Positions 1 through 58,316 of a stretch of 64,000 nt of DNA are shown here, piece by piece (positions within the stretch are counted from its first letter, which is position 1; every line of letters starts with the position of its first letter). The notes under the pieces are model-generated. The model was not told the DNA's origin. It did not search any database and saw only the letters and a program-made list of their open reading frames with translations. Source of the stretch: Comamonas granuli NBRC 101663. Its GTDB lineage: Bacteria > Pseudomonadota > Gammaproteobacteria > Burkholderiales > Burkholderiaceae_C. Made by a program: the position numbers and the translations under genes. Where the stretch lies: assembly GCF_000739995.1 (NCBI RefSeq), contig NZ_BBJX01000002.1:248001-312000 (forward strand). Reading direction: 5' to 3'.

Positions 1-1086
1 ACCTTCTTCCAGTCCATCGGCCTGCTCGACCACGTCGATCCGCTGATCTACCGCACCATCTGGTGGGCCCTGGGCCACTCCTCGCAGCAGATCAACGTGG
101 CGGCGCACATCTCCATCTGGTATGCCGTGGCGGCCATCGCCTTCGGTGCCAAGCCCATGTCCGAACGCGTGAGCCGCGGTGCCTTCCTGCTGTACATCCT
201 GTTCCTGCAGCTTGCCAGTGCCCACCACCTGCTGGCCGACCCCGGCATCAGCACCGAGTGGAAGGTGGTGAACACCAGCTACTTCATGTACTTCGCCGTG
301 CTGGCCTCGATGATCCACGCGCTGTCCATCCCGGGCGCCATGGAAGTCGCGCAGCGCGCCAAGGGCTACAACAAGGGCCTGTTCGAGTGGCTGCGCAAGG
401 CGCCCTGGGGCAACCCGACGTTCTCCGGCGTGTTCATCGCGCTCGTGGGCTTCGGCTTCCTGGGTGGCATCTCCGGCGTGATGATGGGTACCGAACAGCT
501 CAACCTGCTGATCCACAACACCATCTACGTGCCGGGCCACTTCCACGCCACCGTGGTGATCGGCACCACGCTGACCTTCATGGCGCTGACGTACTTCCTC
601 ATCCCCGTGCTCTTCAAGCGCGAGATGATCCTGCCCGGCCTGGCCAAGATCCAGCCCTACCTGTTCGGCTTCTCCATGTACTTCTTCTCGCTGGTGATGA
701 TGGGTGCCGGCACGCTGGGCGTCTCGCGCCGCCATTGGGACATGGCCTTCAGCGGCCACGCCCTGGCCTATGAGTGGCCCGGTGCCGCCTATCTGATGAT
801 GGGCCTGGTCGGCATCAGCGGCATCGTGGCCATCGTCGGGGGTGCGGCCTACGTGCTCATCACCGTGGGCTCGGTGTTCTTCGGCAAGAAGCTCGACGCC
901 GGTGCCGTGAGCCCCAGGTTCACGCCCGTCTCGCGCGCTGCGCCCACGGCGGCCGCCCAGACCTACGGCTCCGCCGGTTTCGTGGCGCCGGGCACCTTCG
1001 TGCTGGCCATGTTCTTCCTCGTGTCCTTCGTGCTGTACTACTTCGTCAACTGGAAGTACCTCAGCCAGCTGTGGGGCCTGAGCTGA
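1..1086 (+). CDS. B-type heme-copper oxidase subunit I homologue (5'-truncated), Tyr replaced by Gln
   Basis: The gene enters from the left edge; 361 residues are visible. It is a multi-span catalytic subunit of the heme-copper superfamily, placed in the B (ba3-like) family by HHLLADPG (residues 75-82) and HNTIYVPGHFH (172-182). Visible metal ligands are H26 (helix VI, CuB), H75/H76 (CuB pair) and H180/H182 (heme ligands). The residue four after H26, where oxygen reductases carry the cross-linked Tyr, is Gln (Q30, nt 88-90). Loss of that Tyr is typical of nitric oxide reductases in this superfamily, so the usual 'cytochrome c oxidase' label may be wrong. Heme O synthase and SCO genes follow directly, which fits maturation of a heme-copper centre. 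Family assignment is firm; NO reduction is inference. Confidence 0.9.
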   Translation, partial: TFFQSIGLLDHVDPLIYRTIWWALGHSSQQINVAAHISIWYAVAAIAFGAKPMSERVSRGAFLLYILFLQLASAHHLLADPGISTEWKVVNTSYFMYFAVLASMIHALSIPGAMEVAQRAKGYNKGLFEWLRKAPWGNPTFSGVFIALVGFGFLGGISGVMMGTEQLNLLIHNTIYVPGHFHATVVIGTTLTFMALTYFLIPVLFKREMILPGLAKIQPYLFGFSMYFFSLVMMGAGTLGVSRRHWDMAFSGHALAYEWPGAAYLMMGLVGISGIVAIVGGAAYVLITVGSVFFGKKLDAGAVSPRFTPVSRAAPTAAAQTYGSAGFVAPGTFVLAMFFLVSFVLYYFVNWKYLSQLWGLS

Positions 1087-1101
1087 TCGGAACCCTGGGC
1101 A

Positions 1102-2001
1102 ATGCACACCACCACGCTCAAGCCCTCCGGGCGCAGCATGGCGCAGTTGGCGCGTGACGTCATCTCGCTGTTCAAGCTGCGCATCGGGGTGCTGATCATG
1201 ATCACCGCGCTCGTGGGCATGGCCGTCACGCCCGGCCCGGCACTCGGCCTCGCGCAGGTGCTGGTGCTGGCGCTGTCGGTGCTGCTGGCGTCGGCCAGCG
1301 CGGGGGCGTTCAACCAGTATGTCGAATACCAGAGCGACCGCCTGATGGAGCGCACGAAAAAGCGCGCCTTCGTCACCGGCGCGCTGCCCCACCACCCCGC
1401 CTGGCTCGGCCTCATGGCCGTGCTGCTGGCGGCCGCGGTGGCGGCGGCCTGGCTGGCCCTCAACGGCGTGGCGGCGCTCCATGTGTTCCTGGGCGCCTTC
1501 TTCTACGGCGTGGTCTACACCCTGTGGCTCAAGCGCCGCACCCCGATGAACATCGTCATCGGGGGGCTGGCGGGCAGTTTTGCCGTGCTCGCGGGGGCGG
1601 CCGCCGTCGATCCGGCGCTCGGGCCGCTGCCCTGGCTGCTGGCCCTGGTGCTGTTCCTCTGGACGCCGCCGCATTTCTGGAGCCTGGCCATTGCCAACCG
1701 CGACGACTATGCGCAGGCAGGCGTGCCCATGCTGCCGGTGGTCGTCGGCCCCGAGAGTGCGGCCCGCACGGTGCTGGCCAGTACCGTGGCGCTGTTCATC
1801 GCCTCGCTGCTGCCCCTGGCCTATGGCGCAGGGCCGGTCTATGGTGTGGGCGCCCTCCTGGGCGGCCTGCACTTCGTCCGCAAATCCTGGCAACTGGCGC
1901 GCCAGCCTGCGCGCGCCACGGCCATGGGTTCGTTTTTTGCATCGCTGGTGCAACTGAGCGTCCTGCTGGTCGCTGCCTGCATCGACGCCGTGCTGCGTTG
2001 A
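1102..2001 (+). CDS. ctaB: Protoheme IX farnesyltransferase (heme O synthase)
   Basis: This membrane prenyltransferase of 299 residues converts heme B to heme O for heme-copper enzymes. Conserved UbiA/CtaB motifs are visible: NQYVEYQSDRLMERT near residue 72 (the first acidic motif, with Glu in place of the first Asp as in many CtaB proteins), LKRRTPMNIVIGGLAG near residue 147, and LWTPPHFWSLAIANRDDY near residue 185. About nine hydrophobic spans are present. It starts 15 nt after the oxidase-like subunit and is followed 10 nt later by the SCO gene, so it should be cotranscribed and dedicated to the local enzyme. No heme A synthase (ctaA) is visible in the window, so the final heme could be O or A. 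Confidence 0.93.
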   Translation: MHTTTLKPSGRSMAQLARDVISLFKLRIGVLIMITALVGMAVTPGPALGLAQVLVLALSVLLASASAGAFNQYVEYQSDRLMERTKKRAFVTGALPHHPAWLGLMAVLLAAAVAAAWLALNGVAALHVFLGAFFYGVVYTLWLKRRTPMNIVIGGLAGSFAVLAGAAAVDPALGPLPWLLALVLFLWTPPHFWSLAIANRDDYAQAGVPMLPVVVGPESAARTVLASTVALFIASLLPLAYGAGPVYGVGALLGGLHFVRKSWQLARQPARATAMGSFFASLVQLSVLLVAACIDAVLR

Positions 2002-2011
2002 GGGGCGGGCC

Positions 2012-2875
2012 GTGACGAGGTCGCTGCTCCCCCGCCTCTGCCGCACCATCGCGGCCTGCGGCCTGGCGCTGGCGCTGCTGCCCGCAGCGCTGGCCTCGGC
2101 GCCCGCGCAGCCATCCACCGATCTGGGCCTGGACCGTGAACAGGCGCTGCGCCTGAGCCAGGCGGCCATCGGGCGGCAGGTGGGCGAGCATATTCTTCTC
2201 AACCGCGAGGGCCGGCCCGTGGCCCTCTCCTCCTTCCGGGGCAAACCCCTGCTGGTGAGCTTCATCTACACCGGCTGCTTCCAGGTCTGCCCCACTACCA
2301 CGCGTTCGCTGCAGGAGACCGTCGAGGGCCTGCAAAAGAGCGTGGGGCCGAACCAGTTCAATGTGGTGAGTATTGGCTTCAACCAGCCGGCCGACAGTCC
2401 CCAGGCGCTCAAGGCCTTTGCCACCCAGTACGGCATCAAGACCCCGAACTGGGATTTCCTGAGCCCGCCATCGGCCATCGTGCCTGCGCTGGCGACCGAC
2501 TTCGGGTTCGTGTTCCAGGCTTCGCCCGCGGGTTTCGACCATGTGCTGCAGGTCTCCATCCTGGACGCCGAAGGGCGCATCGTGCGGCAGGTGTACGGCG
2601 AGTCCATCGCCCCCGCGGAGCTGGGTGAGCCGCTGAAGATGCTGCTGGCCGGCCAGCCCGTGCAAACCAATGAGCTGATCGACCAGCTCATGGACCGGGT
2701 GCGCATCCTGTGCACCGTGTACGACCCCAAGACCGGGGCCTACAAGGTCGACTACACCCTGCCGTTCCAGATCGCCGGCGGCGTGACCTTCTTTGTCCTG
2801 ATGCTGGCCTTTTTCTTCAACGAATGGCGCTCGAGCCGGCAAAGCGCACGCAACAAAGGGGTGCGCAGCGCCTGA
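2012..2875 (+). CDS. SCO1/SenC-type copper chaperone with C-terminal membrane anchor
   Basis: A thioredoxin-fold SCO protein of 287 residues that delivers copper to heme-copper enzymes in the periplasm. The start is GTG with a GAGGGG ribosome site. An N-terminal hydrophobic signal (residues 12-32) precedes the copper motif TGCFQVCP (CxxxC) and a downstream His in FDHVLQV, the three expected ligands. Unlike a minimal SCO, it has an extra C-terminal domain with a strong transmembrane segment (about 250-270) followed by a basic tail, so it is probably anchored at the C terminus after signal cleavage or at both ends. Its position between ctaB and the cytochrome b fusion indicates service to the local complex. 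Confidence 0.9.
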   Translation: MTRSLLPRLCRTIAACGLALALLPAALASAPAQPSTDLGLDREQALRLSQAAIGRQVGEHILLNREGRPVALSSFRGKPLLVSFIYTGCFQVCPTTTRSLQETVEGLQKSVGPNQFNVVSIGFNQPADSPQALKAFATQYGIKTPNWDFLSPPSAIVPALATDFGFVFQASPAGFDHVLQVSILDAEGRIVRQVYGESIAPAELGEPLKMLLAGQPVQTNELIDQLMDRVRILCTVYDPKTGAYKVDYTLPFQIAGGVTFFVLMLAFFFNEWRSSRQSARNKGVRSA

Positions 2876-2889
2876 CGCGCGCCAGATCC

Positions 2890-4473
2890 ATGCTTTTGCC
2901 AGGTACGGCCTTCGCCCCCGAAGGCTCCCGCATTCCGGCCCCGCCGCCCCCGGTTTCCCGTTCCGCCGCTCTCTGGCGCCAGCTCGAACACGCCTTCGAC
3001 GCCCCCTTCGGCGCCGCGCTCAACCCGCTCAAGCACCTGGGGGCGCTGGGCTTCATGCTGCTGTGGCTGCTGGTGGCCAGCGGCACCATCCTCTACATCG
3101 TCCTCGACACCTCGGCCGCCGGGGCCTACCGCTCCATCGCCGCGCTCGCCGACGTGCCCTGGATGCTGGGCACCGTCCTGCGCGGCGTGCACCGCTACGC
3201 CACCGACGCCTTCCTCGTGGTGATGCTGGCGCACATCGTGCGCGAATGGGCGCTGGGGCGCTACCGGCATTTCCGCAGGATCTCCTGGCTCACCGGCGTG
3301 CCGCTGGTGGCGCTGGCCTTCGTGAGCGGCGTGGGCGGCTTCTGGCTCAACTGGGACCGCCTGGGCCAGTATTCCGTGGTGGCCACGGCCGAGTGGATCG
3401 ACGCCCTGCCCTTCCTGGCATCGCCGCTGGCGCGCAATTTCCTCGGCGCCGTGAGCCTCAACGACCGCCTGTTCACGCTGTTCGTCTTCATCCACATCGG
3501 GGTGCCGCTGCTGCTCATCTTCGGCCTGTGGTTCCACATCCAGCGCATCAGCCTGGCCCAGGTATTTCCGCCGCGCGCCCTCGCCGGGGGCAGCGTGCTC
3601 ACGCTGGTGGCGCTGGCGCTGGCGCTGCCGGTGCACAGCCAGGGGCCGGCCGACCTGTCCACCGTGCCCACGGCGCTGGCGCTGGACTGGTTCGTGCTGT
3701 TCATCCACCCGCTCGCCGATGCCACCTCGGCCAACACGGTCTGGGGGCTGCTGGCCCTGGCCTTTGGCCTGCTCATCCTGCCGCCCCTGTGGCCGGCACC
3801 GGCGCGCCCGGCGGTGGCGGTGGTGCACCCGGAGCATTGCAGCGGCTGCGCGCGCTGCTTCGACGACTGCCCCTACTCGGCCATCACCATGGTGCCCCAC
3901 CCCAACGGCAAGCGCGGCATGCGGCTGGCCGAGGTGCGCGCCGACCTGTGCGCGAGCTGCGGCATCTGCGCCGGGGCCTGTCCATCGTCCACGCCGTTTC
4001 GCAGCGCCGAGCATCTGGTGACGGGCATCGACATGCCGCAATGGCCGGTGAATGATCTGCGCCAGCAACTGGTGGCGCAACTGCGCGCCATGCCGGGGCC
4101 GCGCCGCCTGGTGGTTTTCGGCTGCGACCAGGGCGCGCGCGTGCGCACCGCGGCCGACGATGTGCTGCACTTCGGCCTGGTGTGCGCCGGCATGCTGCCG
4201 CCCTCGTTCGTCGAATACGCGCTGCGTGCCGGGGCCGACGGCGTGCTGATCAGCGGCTGCCGTGCGGGCGGCTGCGAGTTCCGCCTGGGCCAGCGCTGGA
4301 CGGCCGAGCGCCTCACGGGCGCCAGAGAACCCCATTTGCGCCGCTCGGTCCCGGCCGAACGCTGGCGCACCGCCTGGTGCGATCCGGGCGACGAGCAGCA
4401 ACTTGCCGCTGCCGTGGACGAATTGCGCCGCCAGTGCATGGCCGGCGCCCCCCTTGAAGAGGAGAAACAGTGA
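2890..4473 (+). CDS. Cytochrome b fused to 2[4Fe-4S] ferredoxin and MvhD/FlpD-like iron-sulfur domain
   Basis: A three-part protein of 527 residues. Residues 30-300 are a bc1-type cytochrome b N-terminal domain with two heme-binding His pairs, H101/H115 and H202/H216, each 14 apart. Residues 310-370 hold two tetracysteine clusters (CSGCARCFDDCP and CASCGICAGACP). Residues 400-527 resemble the MvhD/FlpD (F420-non-reducing hydrogenase delta / heterodisulfide reductase partner) fold, with Cys at about 412, 432, 457 and 462 able to hold a [2Fe-2S] centre. This chain could move electrons between a soluble redox partner and membrane b hemes. The start is the ATG 14 nt after the SCO stop; a longer in-frame extension upstream reads through the SCO gene and is not credible. 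The natural partner is unknown. Confidence 0.85.
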   Translation: MLLPGTAFAPEGSRIPAPPPPVSRSAALWRQLEHAFDAPFGAALNPLKHLGALGFMLLWLLVASGTILYIVLDTSAAGAYRSIAALADVPWMLGTVLRGVHRYATDAFLVVMLAHIVREWALGRYRHFRRISWLTGVPLVALAFVSGVGGFWLNWDRLGQYSVVATAEWIDALPFLASPLARNFLGAVSLNDRLFTLFVFIHIGVPLLLIFGLWFHIQRISLAQVFPPRALAGGSVLTLVALALALPVHSQGPADLSTVPTALALDWFVLFIHPLADATSANTVWGLLALAFGLLILPPLWPAPARPAVAVVHPEHCSGCARCFDDCPYSAITMVPHPNGKRGMRLAEVRADLCASCGICAGACPSSTPFRSAEHLVTGIDMPQWPVNDLRQQLVAQLRAMPGPRRLVVFGCDQGARVRTAADDVLHFGLVCAGMLPPSFVEYALRAGADGVLISGCRAGGCEFRLGQRWTAERLTGAREPHLRRSVPAERWRTAWCDPGDEQQLAAAVDELRRQCMAGAPLEEEKQ

Positions 4474-4976
4474 TGAACCGCGCACTCAACTGGACCGGCC
4501 AGGCCCTGCTCTACGGCGGCTTTGCCGTGGCGCTCGGGGTGTTTTCGCGCTGGCCCGTGTACCACCCGCTGGCGCCGGACATGGCGCAGGTCAAGGTCAG
4601 CTTCATCCACCATGGCGCGCGCCTTGCCGACTGCCGCCCGTACACCGCCGAAGAGCAGGCCAAGATGGCCAAGAACATGCGCAAGGCGATGAAGTGCGAA
4701 CGCGAGCGCTCGCCCGTGCACATCGAGGTGGACATCGACGGCAAGAACGTACTCAGCCACACCGCCCTGCCCTCGGGCCTGTCGCGCGACGGCGCATCCA
4801 CGGTGTACCAGCGCATCGACATCCCCGCGGGCGAGCACCGCATCGCCGTGCGCTTCCAGGACAACAAGGCGGCCGAGGGCTTGACGGCCCAGCGCGAGGA
4901 AACCGTCACCCTGCGCAGCGCGCAGGTGCTGGTGATCGACTACAACCCGGACAAGGGAGGCATTGTTCTGCAATGA
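4473..4976 (+). CDS. Membrane-anchored protein of unknown function
   Basis: A 167-residue protein I do not recognise. The ATG overlaps the previous stop (TGATG) and follows a strong GAGGAGA site, so translation is coupled to the cytochrome b fusion. One N-terminal hydrophobic segment (residues 8-28) suggests a membrane anchor or uncleaved signal. The remainder is soluble and beta-rich, with His-His (47-48) and two Cys, and was probably exported. The stop overlaps the next start (ATGA), so the gene is locked inside the respiratory operon. It may be an accessory subunit or assembly factor. The two Cys lie about 21 residues apart around a basic lysine-rich stretch, but no known metal motif is obvious. 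Confidence 0.8.
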   Translation: MNRALNWTGQALLYGGFAVALGVFSRWPVYHPLAPDMAQVKVSFIHHGARLADCRPYTAEEQAKMAKNMRKAMKCERERSPVHIEVDIDGKNVLSHTALPSGLSRDGASTVYQRIDIPAGEHRIAVRFQDNKAAEGLTAQREETVTLRSAQVLVIDYNPDKGGIVLQ

Positions 4977-6412
4977 GCGCCAGTGCTTCTTCCATACCGG
5001 GGCGGGCGCCAGGGCGCGCCGCCACGCTGCCTCCCGCCGCTGCGGGTGCGGACTACCAGTTGAGCGTGCCCCAGGATGCGCGCCGTGCGCTGGCGCGCGG
5101 CTGGCTCTGGCTGGGGCTGGCCGCGCTCATCGGGTCGGGCATTTTTTCCGTGCTGCTCGTGGTCTCGCGCACGCCCTATGTGAACCAATGGCTGCCTGCG
5201 GCCAATTTCTTCCATATTTCGCTCGTGCTCCACGTGGATCTGTCGGTCCTCGTCTGGTTCGTGGCCCTGGCCGGCCTGCTCTGGAGCCTGCATGGCACGC
5301 GGCGCGCTGCCGGCATGGGCTGGCTGGCGCTGTGGGTGACGGGGGCCGGCACACTGGCCATGGCGCTGGCGCCGTTCCTCGATCCGGGCGAGCCCATCAT
5401 GGCCAACTACATCCCGGTGCTGGAGTCGCCGCTGTTTCTCGCCGGGCTGGTGGTGTTCGGTGCGGGGGCCGCCTTGCTCACACTGCGCGGCATGCTGGCG
5501 GCACCGCGCATCGGCCTGGACTACGACGGCCGCGGCGCCCTGGACTTCGGTCTGAGCTCGGCGGCCGTCGCCACGGCCGTCGCACTGCTGTGCTTTGCCT
5601 GGTCCTGGGCCGTGCTGCCCACCGCCCTGGCGGGCAAGGCGTACTACGAAATCCTGTTCTGGGGCGGCGGCCATGCCCTGCAGTTCACCTGGACGCTGCT
5701 CATGCTCGTCTCCTGGCTGTGGCTGGCCAGCGCCTGCGGTGCGCGCGTGCTGGTGAGCCCGCGCGTCACGGTGCTGCTGTTCCTGCTGGCGCTGGCCGGT
5801 GTCTTCGTCACGCCCTATGCTTATCTGGCGTACGACGTCGCCTCCGTCGAGCACCGCAACCTGCTGACCTGGGCCATGCGCCTGGGCGGCGGGCCGGCCA
5901 TCGTGCCCGTGGGCCTGGCCGTGGTCTTTGGCGTGCTGCTGTTGCGCGGCCTGGCGCCCGCCCTGCGCCCGCTGCGTGCGGCGCTGCTGTCCTCGGTGCT
6001 GCTGTTTGCCGCGGGCGGCATCATCGGCGTGTTCATCAATGGCAGCAATGTGCGCATTCCGGCGCATTACCACGGCTGCATCGTCGGCGTGACGCTGGCG
6101 CTCATGGGCGCGGTCTACCGCATCCTGCCCGCGCTGGGCTACCAGGCGCCGCAGGGGCGCCTGGCGACCTGGCAGCCCTGGCTCTACGGCATCGGCCAGC
6201 TCATGCACATCATCGGCCTGGTCTGGTCCGGCGGCTATGGCGTGCAGCGCAAGGTGGCGGGCGCCGACCAGGTGCTGCGCAGCACCGCCGAAGTGGCTGG
6301 CATGGGCCTCATGGGGCTGGGCGGCCTCATCGCCATCATCGGCGGCCTGTTGTTCGTGGTGGTGGTGATCCGCGCCATCCGCGCGCCGCTGGCTCCAGCG
6401 GCCCAAGCCTGA
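4973..6412 (+). CDS. Degenerate heme-copper oxidase-like membrane protein
   Basis: A 479-residue protein with about 12 hydrophobic spans that aligns with subunit I of B-type/NO-reductase-like heme-copper enzymes. It retains the helix II His region (H81, H87), the first CuB-type His (H234 in FWGGGHALQFTW) and the helix X pair AHYH (H365/H367) that would bind two hemes. The residue at H+4 is Phe (F238) instead of Tyr, and the helix VII HH pair is missing: the matching stretch reads TPYAYLAYD (280-288). It could therefore bind hemes without a normal copper or non-heme iron site. It starts inside the previous stop (ATGA). It may be an electron-transfer or structural paralogue of the subunit at the left edge, or an enzyme with a different active site. 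Confidence 0.8.
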   Translation: MSASASSIPGRAPGRAATLPPAAAGADYQLSVPQDARRALARGWLWLGLAALIGSGIFSVLLVVSRTPYVNQWLPAANFFHISLVLHVDLSVLVWFVALAGLLWSLHGTRRAAGMGWLALWVTGAGTLAMALAPFLDPGEPIMANYIPVLESPLFLAGLVVFGAGAALLTLRGMLAAPRIGLDYDGRGALDFGLSSAAVATAVALLCFAWSWAVLPTALAGKAYYEILFWGGGHALQFTWTLLMLVSWLWLASACGARVLVSPRVTVLLFLLALAGVFVTPYAYLAYDVASVEHRNLLTWAMRLGGGPAIVPVGLAVVFGVLLLRGLAPALRPLRAALLSSVLLFAAGGIIGVFINGSNVRIPAHYHGCIVGVTLALMGAVYRILPALGYQAPQGRLATWQPWLYGIGQLMHIIGLVWSGGYGVQRKVAGADQVLRSTAEVAGMGLMGLGGLIAIIGGLLFVVVVIRAIRAPLAPAAQA

Positions 6413-6425
6413 AGGGAATCCCGAA

Positions 6426-8342
6426 ATGATCAAGAAATTCCAAGAACTGCTGCAGTGGCTGTTCCTGCGCGTCGAGGGGCTGTTCAACGCCGCCTTCGGC
6501 GACCGCATCAACCCCTTCTACCACCTCGGCGCCATCACCTTCTTCCTGTTCTGGGTGGTGGGGGCCAGCGGCCTGTACCTCTACGTGTTCTTCGAGACGG
6601 GCATTCCCGAGGCCTACACCTCGGTCGTGGCGCTGACGGACAAGCAATGGTGGCTCGGCGGCATCCTGCGCAGCGTGCACCGCTATGCCTCCGACGCCAT
6701 GGTGCTCACCATGGTGCTGCACATGCTGCGCTACTTCGCCTTCGACCGCTACCACGGCTTCCGCTGGTTCTCGTGGGTCACGGGCGTGATGCTGATCTGG
6801 ATGGTCTACGCCTCGGGCGTGAACGGCTACATGCTGCCCTGGGACCAATTGGCGCAGTACGTCACCGTGACCTCGTTCGAGTGGCTCGACTCGCTGCCCA
6901 TCTTCAACGGCACGCTGATGCGCAACTTCCTCTATTCGGACCATGTCGGCAGCCGCTTCTTCACGCTGCTGTCGTTCATGCACCTGGGCATTCCGCTGGT
7001 GGTGCTGATGGTCATGTGGATCCACGTGCAGCGCGTGCCCAAGGCCCGTACCACGCCGCCCCGCCCCATCGTGGTCGGCCTGCTGCTGACCATGCTCGTG
7101 CTCTCGCTGGTCGCGCCGGTGCGCGTGCAAGGCGGCGTGAGCGACCTGGCCAAGGCCGTGACCAGCGTGGAGCTGGACTGGTTCTACATGGCCGTGTTCC
7201 CGCTGCTGACCGAGTGGCCGCTGGGCCGGGTGTGGGCGCTGGTGGTCGGCGCCTCGGTGCTGCTGGCCCTGCTGCCCTGGCTGCCGCCGCGCTGGGGGCG
7301 GGGGGCCAAGAACAAGTTCCAGATCGTGGTGCATGGCGAGCAGGGCGAGAGCGCGGAAATCACCGTGCGCAAGGGCGAGACCATCCTCGACGCCGGCCTG
7401 CGCGAAGGCCTGACCCTGGCCTACGACTGCCGCAACGGCGGCTGCGGCCTGTGCGTGTGCAGTGTGGCGCAGGGGGCCTATGAGCAGCGCCCCTACCAGG
7501 CGAGCGCCCTCTCCGGCGCCCAGAAGGCCCGGGGCCAGGCGCTCATGTGCTGCATGGAGCCCAGCGAGGACATGGCCATCGAGGTCGCCTACGACATCGG
7601 CGCCCAGCCCCAGGCGCCCGAGGTGCACAGCGCCACCGTGGTGCAGATGGAGCGTCTGGCCGAGGACGTGATGCTGGTGGTGCTGGAGCTGCCCGACGGC
7701 AAGAGCCTGGATTTCCTGGCGGGCCAGTACATCAACATCCTGCTCGACGACGGCCAGCGCCGCGCCTTCTCGTTTGCCAACCGGCCCCAGGCGGGGCGCC
7801 AGATCGAGCTGCATGTGCGCCTCGTGCCGGGCGGGCGCTTCACCACCTATGTGTTCGAGGGCATGAAGGTGGGCGACGTGCTGCGCTTCGAGGGGCCGCG
7901 CGGCCAGTTCACGCTGCGCGAGAGCGACCCGCCCATCCTGTTCGTCGCCGGAGCAACGGGGTTTGCGCCCATCAAGAGCATCGTGGAAGACGCCTTCGCC
8001 CGCGGCGTGCAGCGCACCATGCGCCTGTACTGGGGCGTGCGCCAGCCCCAGGACTTGTACATGCTGCAGCACTGCGAGGAATGGCAGCGCGCGCATGCCA
8101 ACTTCACCGTGGTGCCGGTGGTGTCCGAGCCCGCGCCGGGCGACGGCTGGACGGGCCGCACGGGCCTGGTGCACGAGGCCATGCTCGCGGACTTTGCCGA
8201 CCTGAGCGGCTATGAGGTCTACCTGTGCGGCTCGGTGCGCATGGTGGATGCCGCCGTGCCCGCGTTCATCGCCCAGGGCCTGCATGAGGATGCCTGCTTC
8301 TCGGACGCTTTTGTCCCGGCGGCGCCTGCTCCGGTAGCATAG
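6426..8342 (+). CDS. Cytochrome b fused to [2Fe-2S] ferredoxin and FAD/NAD(P)H reductase
   Basis: A 638-residue fusion. Residues 1-290 are a bc1-like cytochrome b with His pairs H85/H99 and H186/H200 (spacing 14) and about six spans. Residues 298-385 are a plant-type ferredoxin with C335, C340 and C343 (CX4CX2C) and C375/C376. Residues 395-638 are a ferredoxin-NADP reductase module with RAFSFANRP (FAD), GATGFAPIKS and YLCGSVRMVD (NAD(P)H). In one chain this makes a path NAD(P)H to FAD to [2Fe-2S] to b hemes, in either direction. An AAGGGAA site lies 9 nt upstream, and the gene closes the operon. It complements the other cytochrome b fusion, which carries 4Fe-4S clusters instead. Domain calls are secure; direction of electron flow is not. 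Confidence 0.88.
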   Translation: MIKKFQELLQWLFLRVEGLFNAAFGDRINPFYHLGAITFFLFWVVGASGLYLYVFFETGIPEAYTSVVALTDKQWWLGGILRSVHRYASDAMVLTMVLHMLRYFAFDRYHGFRWFSWVTGVMLIWMVYASGVNGYMLPWDQLAQYVTVTSFEWLDSLPIFNGTLMRNFLYSDHVGSRFFTLLSFMHLGIPLVVLMVMWIHVQRVPKARTTPPRPIVVGLLLTMLVLSLVAPVRVQGGVSDLAKAVTSVELDWFYMAVFPLLTEWPLGRVWALVVGASVLLALLPWLPPRWGRGAKNKFQIVVHGEQGESAEITVRKGETILDAGLREGLTLAYDCRNGGCGLCVCSVAQGAYEQRPYQASALSGAQKARGQALMCCMEPSEDMAIEVAYDIGAQPQAPEVHSATVVQMERLAEDVMLVVLELPDGKSLDFLAGQYINILLDDGQRRAFSFANRPQAGRQIELHVRLVPGGRFTTYVFEGMKVGDVLRFEGPRGQFTLRESDPPILFVAGATGFAPIKSIVEDAFARGVQRTMRLYWGVRQPQDLYMLQHCEEWQRAHANFTVVPVVSEPAPGDGWTGRTGLVHEAMLADFADLSGYEVYLCGSVRMVDAAVPAFIAQGLHEDACFSDAFVPAAPAPVA

Positions 8343-8350
8343 TGCGCATG

Positions 8351-9139
8351 ATGCGCATAGTGACCGCCAACCTCAACGGCATCCGCTCGGCAGCGGCCAA
8401 GGGTTTTTTCGACTGGATAGGCCAGCAGCAGGCCGACGCCGTCGGCGTGCAGGAGATCAAGGCCCAGCCGGGCCAGATCAGCGGCGCGTACGACCGCATC
8501 GGGGACATGCCCGGGCATTTCCACTGTGCGCAAAAGCCCGGCTATTCGGGCGTGGGCCTGTACCTGCGCGAGGAGCCCTCGGACGTGATCACCGGCCTGG
8601 GCGACGCCGGGTTCGACGCCGAGGGGCGCTGGGTCGAGGCGCGCTACGACCGGCCCGGGCGCCGGCTCAGCCTGGTCAGTTGCTACTTCCCGAGCGGCTC
8701 CTCGGGCGAGGAGCGCCAGCAGGCCAAGTTCCGCTTCCTGGACCTGATGTACCCCAAGCTCATGGCGCTGCGCGCCGAGCGCGAGTTCATCCTGGTGGGC
8801 GACGTGAACATCGCCCACCAGGCGATCGACCTGAAGAACTGGCGCAGCAACCAGAAGAACAGCGGCTTCCTGCCCGAGGAGCGGGCCTGGATGACGCAAC
8901 TGCTGACCGAAGGCGGCCTGGTGGACGTCTACCGGCACCTGCACCCCGACACCACCGACACCTGCTACACATGGTGGAGCAACCGCGGCCAGGCCTACGC
9001 CAACAACGTGGGGTGGCGGCTGGACTACCAGATCGCGACCCCCGCCCTGGCCGCCCAGGCGCGCCGCGCCGCGATCTACAAGGACCAGAAGTTCAGCGAC
9101 CACGCGCCCCTGTGCATCGACTACGAGCTGGCGCTGTGA
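8351..9139 (+). CDS. xthA: Exodeoxyribonuclease III
   Basis: A 262-residue exonuclease/AP-endonuclease of the EEP superfamily, acting in base-excision repair. Visible catalytic motifs are TANLNGIRSA (N-terminal), VGVQEIKAQ (metal-binding Glu), GDVNIAHQ (Asp/Asn) and the C-terminal SDHAPL (catalytic His). Length matches the family. The start is taken as the second of two adjacent ATG codons, giving the usual MRIVTANLNG N terminus; the ATG at 8348 is nearly equivalent. It begins 8 nt after the respiratory cluster with no clear ribosome site of its own, so readthrough from upstream is possible, but the function is housekeeping. Confidence 0.95.
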   Translation: MRIVTANLNGIRSAAAKGFFDWIGQQQADAVGVQEIKAQPGQISGAYDRIGDMPGHFHCAQKPGYSGVGLYLREEPSDVITGLGDAGFDAEGRWVEARYDRPGRRLSLVSCYFPSGSSGEERQQAKFRFLDLMYPKLMALRAEREFILVGDVNIAHQAIDLKNWRSNQKNSGFLPEERAWMTQLLTEGGLVDVYRHLHPDTTDTCYTWWSNRGQAYANNVGWRLDYQIATPALAAQARRAAIYKDQKFSDHAPLCIDYELAL

Positions 9140-56934: not shown

Positions 56935-58316
56935 GCGGCGTCGCCGGCAGCTACTCCCTGCGCCTGCGCCTGCTGGCGGGCACGCTGGCGTGGATGCTAC
57001 TGGCCATTGCCCTGGTGGGCTGGGGCCTGCGCGCGCTGTTCCAGGAGCACATCACCCAGCAGATGCAGGCGCAACTGGTGATGCAGCTCGACCATCTGAG
57101 CGCTGCCGTCGACTGGGAGCCCGCGGGCGGCGTGCGCGTGGCAGCCATGGCGGCCGACCCGCGCCTGGGCGAACCCCTGTCAGGCCTGTACTGGCAGATC
57201 GACGTCCTGGGTGCGGCGCCGCAGGCCGCCGCAGCGCGGTCGCGCTCGCTGTGGGACCAGGTGCTGGCACTGCCCGCCGTGCCCGCGGCCTACCCGGCCA
57301 AAGGCTACCGCGTGCTGGCGCTGCAGGATGCGCAGGGCCACGCCCTGCTGGCCGTGGCGCGCACCCTGCAACTGCCCGAGGACGAGGCCCCGCCGCTGCG
57401 CCTGGCGGTGGCGGGCGACCGCGCGCTGCTGGCCGAGCCGCTGCAGCGCTTCACGCGCCTGCTGCTCATGGCCCTGGGCATGCTGGCCCTGGGCCTGGCC
57501 GTGGCCGTGGCCGTGCAATTGCACCTGGCGCTGCAGCCGCTGGGCTTGCTGCGCGCGCGGCTGGCCGCCGTGCGCAGCGGCGCGGCCGCGCGGCTGGAAG
57601 GGCGCTTTCCCCAGGAGCTGCAGCCCCTGGTCAACGAGTTCAACCACGTGCTGCAGGAAAACGCCGACATGGTGCAGCGTGCGCGCACCCAGGCGGGCAA
57701 CCTGGCCCATGCGGTGCACACGCCGCTGTCCATCCTGGCCAATGCCGCGGCGCAGGAGCAGGGCGCGCTGGCGCAGCTCGTGCAGGAGCAGGTGGCCAGC
57801 GCCCGCCGCCAGGTGGACTACCACCTGGCGCGCGCGCGCGCCGCCGCGGCCGTACGCGCCACCGGCCTGGCCACGCCGGTCCTGCCGCCGCTGCAGGCCT
57901 TGCTGCGCACCATGCAGCGCCTGCACGCCGAGCGCGGCATCGCCTTCCGCCTGGCCGCCGGGGCGCAGGAGGCCGCCTTCCGCGGCGAGGAGCAGGATCT
58001 GTACGAGCTGCTGGGCAATCTGATCGACAACGCCGGCAAGTGGGCGCGCACCCAGGTGGTGGTGGACGTGCAGCCTCAGGACGGCATGCTGTGCTGCACC
58101 GTGGACGACGACGGCCCCGGCATCCCGCAGCCCGAGCGCGAACGCATGTTCGAGCGCGGCGTGCAGCTCGACGAGCAGCGCCCCGGCTCCGGCCTGGGGC
58201 TGGACATCGTGCGCGCGCTGGCGCACACCTACGGTGGCAGCGTGCAGGTGCAGGACTCCCCCCTGGGCGGCGCGCGCCTGCGCCTGTGCCTGCCGGCGGC
58301 GCTCCCCGGGGGTTGA
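56931..58316 (+). CDS. QseC/PhoQ-type sensor histidine kinase
   Basis: A 461-residue membrane kinase. Spans at about 12-34 and 175-197 enclose a periplasmic domain of 140 residues. The HAMP region is followed by the HisKA box NLAHAVHTPLSILAN, where the phospho-His lies in an unusual AHAVHTPL context typical of the PhoQ-like subgroup, and an ATPase domain (NLIDNAGKWA, DDDGPGIP, GSGLGLDIV). It is coupled to the response regulator by ATGA. The nearby periplasmic PepSY protein could deliver the signal. Confidence 0.93.
   Translation: MSGVAGSYSLRLRLLAGTLAWMLLAIALVGWGLRALFQEHITQQMQAQLVMQLDHLSAAVDWEPAGGVRVAAMAADPRLGEPLSGLYWQIDVLGAAPQAAAARSRSLWDQVLALPAVPAAYPAKGYRVLALQDAQGHALLAVARTLQLPEDEAPPLRLAVAGDRALLAEPLQRFTRLLLMALGMLALGLAVAVAVQLHLALQPLGLLRARLAAVRSGAAARLEGRFPQELQPLVNEFNHVLQENADMVQRARTQAGNLAHAVHTPLSILANAAAQEQGALAQLVQEQVASARRQVDYHLARARAAAAVRATGLATPVLPPLQALLRTMQRLHAERGIAFRLAAGAQEAAFRGEEQDLYELLGNLIDNAGKWARTQVVVDVQPQDGMLCCTVDDDGPGIPQPERERMFERGVQLDEQRPGSGLGLDIVRALAHTYGGSVQVQDSPLGGARLRLCLPAALPGG

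Follow-up and report, generated by a model that had tools for sequence, protein, structure and literature searches.

The window analysed here, a 64,000-nucleotide stretch of Comamonas granuli NBRC 101663 (contig NZ_BBJX01000002.1; G000:C33:248001-312000), opens within what appears to be a proteobacterial operon for an eNOR-type nitric oxide (NO) reductase. The operon carries maturation genes and two proteins, called here fusion A and fusion B, in which a bis-heme cytochrome b is joined to a redox tail. In the genome samples searched, eNOR is hardly ever found without fusion A, and the fusions may serve as dedicated modules feeding the reductase with electrons. Seven genes of the + strand form the cluster at the window start (1-8342). 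The gaps between them are 15, 10, 14, -1, -4 and 13 nucleotides, as expected from a sequence-only reading of the same DNA, which had described genes that overlap or lie within 16 nucleotides of each other and had proposed an undescribed membrane complex. The gene set and much of its order were found again in loci of many genera, and the cluster is therefore more than a chance arrangement. Cultivable carriers include Simplicispira lacusdiani (L107), Ramlibacter lithotrophicus (L126) and Quisquiliibacterium transsilvanicum (L136).

The heme-copper subunit is of the eNOR type

Alignment of 13 subunit I sequences, drawn from 17 eNOR frames scoring 302 bits or more (that of the window included), revealed an invariant Gln (Q235) at the His+4 position, where oxidases have the cross-linked Tyr. 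The Tyr-less character first noticed in the window alone thus extends to all 13 sequences. Helix VI keeps GH-S/P-SQQIN, and H69, H231, H280, H281, H385 and H387, which include the His-His pair and the two His of GHFH/AHFH, are invariant in the same alignment. In the literature, eNOR is recognised by a Gln at this position, according to the available part of PMC8756737. Judged by these residues, the main heme-copper subunit is eNOR-like, i.e. it belongs to a known, if recently recognised, type of NO reductase and not to an undescribed one. The motif VHLWVEG is taken as a mark of cNOR and qNOR; it is absent from subunit I, helix VI of which reads WALGHSSQQIN, and both these readings were rejected.

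That the heme-copper enzyme reduces O2 is very improbable. Among solved chains, the subunit I profile is nearest to the B-family oxidases 7deg and ba3, ctaB and sco lie in the operon, and a ctaA-type gene is located nearby, all of which would suit an O2 reductase. However, Gln replaces the cross-linked Tyr in every aligned sequence, on which ground the O2 reductase reading of subunit I was rejected, and the operon is associated with cd1-type nitrite reductase genes (see below).

The CuA ligands C161, E163, C165 and H169 of subunit II are kept at 95% or more (n=81). C89, C93 and H177 of the Sco protein are conserved (n=80), and a C-terminal anchor was read by eye. A 51-amino-acid (aa) open reading frame (ORF) precedes the subunit II gene in all 82 relatives searched by tblastn. 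It has one membrane segment by eye, and neither a convincing family nor solved kin was found for it. It is perhaps a third eNOR subunit, comparable to the small subunit of ba3 oxidases.

Fusion A accompanies eNOR

Pfam analysis confirmed two different cytochrome b fusions, made up of Cytochrome_B + Fer4_7 + FlpD (A) and Cytochrome_B + Fer2 + FAD_binding_6 + NAD_binding_1 (B). Domains of NAD(P)H- or ferredoxin-linked types are thus present in both, in keeping with the electron donors that the sequence-only reading had named. In fusion A, the heme b ligands His101, His115, His202 and His216, as well as the FlpD cysteines C412, C432, C457 and C462, are kept at 95% or more of 85 sequences, and the tail matches the end of HdrA2 (positions 569-768 of 777; 1.1e-21).

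Co-occurrence was determined in a class sample of 274 genomes, in which the search scores just the best few candidates per genome. At thresholds of E 1e-60 for eNOR and E 1e-30 for fusion A, 24 genomes each were obtained, of which 23 are shared. Fusion A is therefore present in 23 of 24 eNOR genomes as compared to 1 of 250 others (Fisher p=3e-31; such p-values overstate independence, because the genomes within one sample are related). The genome with fusion A but no eNOR (G215) is 77% complete. A phylum sample (229 genomes) added 28 eNOR genomes from other classes, 27 of which carry fusion A, several of them away from the operon. With both samples taken together, 50 of 52 eNOR genomes have fusion A; in the two without it (G264 and G333), eNOR lies at a contig end, before the usual place of A. 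Co-occurrence of both fusions with the Tyr-less subunit had been suggested as a check of the proposed complex: it holds for fusion A, while fusion B turned out to be optional.

Fusion B is an optional addition with a different tail

The heme b ligands of fusion B (His85, His99, His186 and His200) and its [2Fe-2S] cysteines (C335, C340, C343 and C375) are invariant in 42 aligned sequences. To place it among relatives, we used a scan of named genomes with the second heme-copper-like protein of the cluster, which gave at least 573 relatives, and mapped the window's own genes in the best 80 loci, a set biased to near kin. Among the 59 of these that are well covered (at least 8 kb upstream and at least 3.5 kb downstream), 51 hold eNOR with A and B, three hold eNOR with B and four eNOR with A. 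An order sample, i.e. 225 genomes of the window's order (Burkholderiales), yielded fusion B in the window's genome and 18 others; eNOR genes lie nearby in 12 of the 18, and contig-end fragments of the cluster are present in three (G649, G516 and G632). In the class sample, full-length fusion B was seen, among the matches listed, only in the window's genome (G000) and G082. In two loci (L343 and L346) fusion B and the eNOR operon are transcribed divergently; a perfect FNR-type box lies between them in L343. Fusion B is thus an optional addition, partly interchangeable with A and found mostly in Burkholderiales.

A third tail was met once, in G156, no search having been made for more. There, an 846-aa protein encoded past the operon end (L065:2672-5212, - strand) joins the cytochrome b to a CysJ-like flavodoxin/FAD/NAD(P) reductase, and both His pairs and LDWFY are kept. 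PCuAC, Caa3_CtaG and Sco-type genes are present between this third fusion and the operon. The tails thus differ (FlpD, FNR and flavodoxin-CysJ), all being of NAD(P)H- or ferredoxin-linked kinds.

A profile built from 28 sequences of A and B, covering the region that follows the fourth helix, gave a match to b6f subunit IV (4.3e-5) and a weaker one to bc1 cytochrome b; a single-sequence search with this region of fusion B gave no match. In the modules, DWF aligns on the PEWY motif of the quinol site, with Asp in 28 of 28 sequences, Trp in 27 and Phe in 20. In a midpoint-rooted tree of 56 cytochrome b domains drawn from 161 (the third fusion left out), B forms one group (100/100) alongside gammaproteobacterial A sequences (95/92). 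This grouping suggests that fusion B originated when an A-type cytochrome b acquired another tail.

The second heme-copper-like protein and the small Cys protein

Two heme-copper-like proteins had been described in the cluster, and both do match COX1. The second is, however, no usual terminal enzyme. His234, His365 and His367 are invariant and His87 is kept at 90% or more in 26 sequences, and profile comparison aligned these four with the low-spin, first-metal and heme ligands of eNOR; the same comparison showed no counterpart of the helix VII His-His of eNOR. The notion of two terminal enzymes was rejected because this protein is without the CuB/FeB His pair.

Matches to it were obtained in 35 of the 274 class-sample genomes at E 0.001. 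The 30 with E of about 1e-50 or better were kept, and the weak ones (G003, G061, G126, G167 and G214) were left out. Of the kept matches, 19 fall in the 24 eNOR genomes and 11 in the 250 others; the absence from five eNOR genomes makes for a looser tie than that of fusion A. Away from eNOR, relatives of the gene adjoin aa3 oxidase assembly genes, rpoH/ftsX or cytochrome c biogenesis genes, as read by eye in seven loci (L071, L073, L077, L079, L080, L081 and L086). Six of these seven genomes are without eNOR, and G008 (L081) has it elsewhere.

Opinion is evenly balanced on whether this protein is an assembly or sensing factor that would bind heme or NO, and no electron-transfer subunit. The missing His pair, the neighbours in the seven loci and the five eNOR genomes that manage without it favour such a role, whereas the retained heme-ligand positions and the presence in 19 of 24 eNOR genomes speak against it. 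The question concerns one gene and is compatible with any explanation of the others.

In three Rhodocyclaceae/Rhodocyclales loci (L147, L167 and L178), a pair of opposite-strand genes stands between the second heme-copper-like gene and fusion B. One of the two encodes a DUF2249 protein (tested in L147), the other a membrane protein for which no Pfam or NCBIfam match was obtained (tested in L167).

The small protein of the cluster is present in 77 of the best 80 loci, usually after a fusion. Its Cys54 and Cys75 are invariant in 65 of 65 sequences, and one N-terminal membrane segment was read by eye. It belongs to no known family as far as Pfam reveals (weak matches, E 0.005 or worse, in one or two of the 65), and solved kin were not found. 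In one locus, a hemerythrin-domain protein (L062:8094-8492, + strand) is encoded between fusion A and the small Cys protein.

Denitrification context and regulation

Full-length cd1-type genes, scored as PF02239 matches with E below 1e-100 (a definition that takes in NirF/NirN kin), are present in 21 of 24 eNOR genomes, in 4 of 10 genomes that have the second heme-copper-like protein but no eNOR, and in 3 of 18 others, these 18 being hand-picked and not random; 7 of the 28 genomes without eNOR are thus positive overall. At a stricter E of 1e-140 the counts are 15 of 24, 2 of 10 and 2 of 18. In 13 eNOR genomes a cd1-type gene shares a contig with cluster genes, at a distance of 1.6 to 13 kb, which is counted in some of them from fusion A or the second heme-copper-like gene, eNOR being on another contig.

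The NorB motif was found in 4 of the 21 eNOR genomes with cd1-type genes, the window's genome among them, as compared to 5 of 7 cd1-type genomes without eNOR (p=0.02). Four motif matches were checked and lie in NorB-like frames. The other 17 cd1-bearing eNOR genomes gave no match in this exact motif search, which does not by itself prove cNOR or qNOR absent. These associations support NO, which had been named as an acceptor, as the likely substrate. The window's genome also encodes a qNOR-like NorB (G000:C33:97824-97843; L266), at a distance of about 150 kb from the genes of eNOR.

The first part of the operon lies 5' of the window edge and comprises an FNR-type box followed by the 51-aa ORF, CuA subunit II and then subunit I, which runs on into the window. 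The box, TTGATGCAAATCAT, lies at L009:8583-8596, where L009 is the preceding stretch, numbered as window position plus 10000. It was the single match in 20 kb with up to one mismatch allowed, 0.07 being expected. Sites of this type (8 or more of 10 bases) precede the 51-aa ORF in 47 of 82 upstream regions, many of them from close kin, as compared to 4.9% of dinucleotide shuffles.

Proposed electron route and alternatives

The scheme we propose stands, by our estimate, an even chance of being right. The NO reductase would consist of subunit I and CuA subunit II, with the 51-aa ORF as a probable third component, and ctaB and sco would serve heme and copper maturation. Electrons would enter from cytosolic NAD(P)H through the tail of fusion B and from a ferredoxin-type or flavoprotein partner through that of fusion A, and would pass from the tail through the two hemes b across the membrane. 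On the outer side they may be handed to quinone and/or a periplasmic carrier, perhaps with the help of the small Cys protein, and would then enter CuA for the conversion of 2 NO to N2O. We infer the membrane orientation, the formation of a complex, the route and direction of the electrons, and NO as the substrate. Outward flow is favoured on account of the BenC-like and CysJ-like tails, which are those of enzymes oxidising NAD(P)H. NADPH oxidases, too, are bis-heme membrane proteins with an FNR tail, and carry electrons outward.

Several observations weigh against this scheme. Of the 52 eNOR genomes, 41 were searched for cytochrome c1 as the sign of a bc1 complex, and 40 of these have it; the modules are therefore not needed as a bc1 substitute, and the idea that they replace bc1 was rejected. 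No c-type cytochrome, cytochrome c1/f or Rieske gene was found among the window's operon genes (the relatives' operons were not scanned for Rieske), which leaves a gap between cytochrome b and CuA. An outward flow of electrons would come at the cost of membrane potential. Three of the 24 eNOR genomes (G111, G120 and G228) are without a full-length cd1-type gene, and one of the 59 well-covered loci (L171) has A and B with no eNOR within the stretch examined. Fusion B is apart from eNOR in 3 of the 18 other Burkholderiales genomes (G524, G606 and G598), and that of G082 is far from its eNOR cluster.

These separate copies of fusion B would be expected if the fusions were NAD(P)H/ferredoxin-quinone oxidoreductases for general redox balance, placed with eNOR only for co-regulation under anoxia. 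The Qo-like site of the cytochrome b modules and the lone fusion B of G524, which adjoins PQQ-type and not denitrification genes, point the same way. Nevertheless, we hold this explanation to be improbable: fusion A was seen in only 1 of 250 genomes without eNOR (G215), A is retained in eNOR genomes even when not adjacent, and the other lone copies of B adjoin a NirS-like gene (G606) or heme-d1/NirN- and NnrS-like genes (G598), all these neighbours having been read by eye. Conservation of the fusions without the heme-copper genes had been named as an outcome that would speak against a common complex; it was not seen for A, and B is apart from eNOR in few genomes.

A possible but rather unlikely alternative runs the modules in reverse, or as a bifurcating system. 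Quinol would be oxidised at the Qo-like site, one electron going to eNOR and NO and the other through the hemes b to the tail, which would reduce NAD(P)+ or ferredoxin, NO reduction paying for the uphill transfer. The Qo-like motif, with Asp in all 28 sequences, fits such a scheme, as does the HdrA2/MvhD arm in the tail of fusion A, an arm known from flavin-based bifurcation, and bc1 is already there for plain electron supply. NO/N2O at +1.173 V would provide the high-potential sink (available part of PMC10390337), and the Accumulibacter 'novel quinol reductase' has been proposed to re-oxidise quinol anaerobically (PMC4930944, in the portion available). The joint retention of a Qo-like site, an HdrA2-type arm and a high-potential sink, in spite of bc1, would be easier to understand under bifurcation. 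Against it, the window's operon genes include no Rieske-type partner, and tails of the BenC and CysJ types normally oxidise NAD(P)H. One version of this would make eNOR the high-potential arm of a complex that splits quinol without a Rieske protein and has swappable tails reducing ferredoxin (A) or NAD(P)+ (B). It is unlikely; if true, denitrifiers would use the large drop to NO for making low-potential reductant.

NO reduction sets the release of N2O from denitrifying communities. Should a cytochrome b module linked to NAD(P)H or ferredoxin be a near-obligate partner of eNOR, the schemes for how these denitrifiers obtain electrons and conserve energy would have to be re-drawn, and fusion A would become a marker for genome surveys. 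A membrane carrier of this kind could connect eNOR with the NAD(P)H or ferredoxin of the cell, and would thereby account for the way in which these bacteria drive NO reduction or gain from it. More generally, a quinol-site cytochrome b with exchangeable cytosolic tails would be a natural experiment in the rewiring of electron routes.

Organisation of the operon and its surroundings

Positions of the operon genes and of the domains in the two fusions are given in Table 1. The gene after fusion B encodes an Exo_endo_phos family nuclease (window 8342-9139), its GTG start overlapping the end of fusion B; it is probably outside the system. A tRNA-Cys gene at window 57501-57591 is the sole tRNA gene found in the window.

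Table 1. Features of the eNOR operon, in window positions unless marked L009 (the preceding stretch).
Feature	Position	Strand	Match or remark
Heme A synthase (ctaA)-type gene	L009:7455-8471		divergent from operon
51-aa ORF, unlisted, directly 5' of CuA subunit gene	L009:8661-8816 (1340 to 1185 bases before window base 1)		
CuA subunit II	L009:8833-9372		COX2 22.5 bits, just above the cut-off of 22
eNOR-type heme-copper subunit I, 3' part (566 aa whole)	1..1086; whole gene L009:9386-11086	+	COX1 1.1e-60
ctaB / heme O synthase (farnesyltransferase)	1102..2001	+	TIGR01473 3.4e-80, above cut-off
sco: SCO1/SenC-type copper chaperone	2012..2875	+	PF02630 9.7e-14
Fusion A: bis-heme cytochrome b, b6f subunit IV-like part, 2[4Fe-4S], FlpD/MvhD	2890..4473, ATG start	+	Pfam
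Fusion A, Asp-Trp at PEWY (quinol site) position	3685..3690	+	profile alignment
Fusion A, 2[4Fe-4S] ferredoxin domain	3835..3987	+	Fer4_7 8e-9
Fusion A, FlpD/MvhD [2Fe-2S] domain	4174..4431	+	PF02662 3.2e-13
Small protein with two invariant Cys	4473..4976	+	no Pfam match
Second heme-copper-like protein, without CuB/FeB His pair	4973..6412	+	COX1 2.6e-14
Fusion B: bis-heme cytochrome b, subunit IV-like part, [2Fe-2S], FAD/NAD(P)H reductase	6426..8342	+	Pfam
Fusion B, Asp-Trp at PEWY (quinol site) position	7176..7181	+	profile alignment
Fusion B, [2Fe-2S] ferredoxin domain	7341..7562	+	PF00111 1.1e-13
Fusion B, FAD and NAD(P) binding domains	7632..8255	+	PF00970 1.9e-16, PF00175 4.7e-23

Comparison with known systems

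As far as the available parts of these sources go, a Tyr-less operon that includes Sco was reported from Magnetospirilli under the name ba3-a1 (PMC6431628, with a ba3-a1 operon drawn in Figure 5) and later renamed eNOR (PMC8879329). The enzyme has been taken to have two subunits (PMC8756737) and to receive its electrons from cytochrome c (PMC8879329). The window operon shares with this B-family-derived eNOR the subunit I Gln at the Tyr position, the CuA subunit II and the Sco gene (PMC8756737, PMC6431628, PMC8879329). Whereas the published system, in these same parts, comprises two subunits and Sco, the window operon adds the cytochrome b fusions, the small Cys protein and the 51-aa ORF. The cytochrome b modules are unmentioned in the available portions of the eNOR/ba3-a1 literature compared (PMC8756737, PMC11388526, PMC12569097, PMC8114936, PMC10734462, PMC8879329 and PMC6431628), the term cytochrome b having been specifically sought in PMC8879329 and PMC6431628 alone, and Murali et al. 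(PNAS 2024), the primary paper on eNOR, lying outside the comparison.

The membrane part of the modules shares with bc1/b6f cytochrome b the two His-x13-His pairs and the subunit IV-like part, in which mostly DWF stands at the place of PEWY. In contrast to that system, A and B carry redox tails, and neither Rieske nor cytochrome c1/f is encoded among the window's operon genes. The 2[4Fe-4S] and FlpD tail of fusion A is that of the HdrA2/MvhD electron arm, but it is without the HdrA flavin domain and is joined to a membrane cytochrome b instead. With carriers of the NADPH oxidase type, the modules have in common an FNR-type tail on a bis-heme membrane domain; they differ in that the membrane part is of the b6f and not the ferric-reductase type, and the acceptor is probably not O2.

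The Accumulibacter quinol reductase is said to have been described by Garcia Martin et al. in 2006 as a cytochrome b/b6 fused to FeS and NAD(P)/FAD domains. This make-up, as described, is like that of fusion B. In the available part of PMC4930944, the enzyme is discussed for anaerobic operation of the tricarboxylic acid cycle and quinol re-oxidation, with no tie to a NO reductase; if homologous to the fusions, it would gain a possible denitrification context. The undescribed complex put forward in the sequence-only reading is thus familiar in its catalytic subunit, which carries the known eNOR signature, while the dedicated, swappable cytochrome b modules look new.

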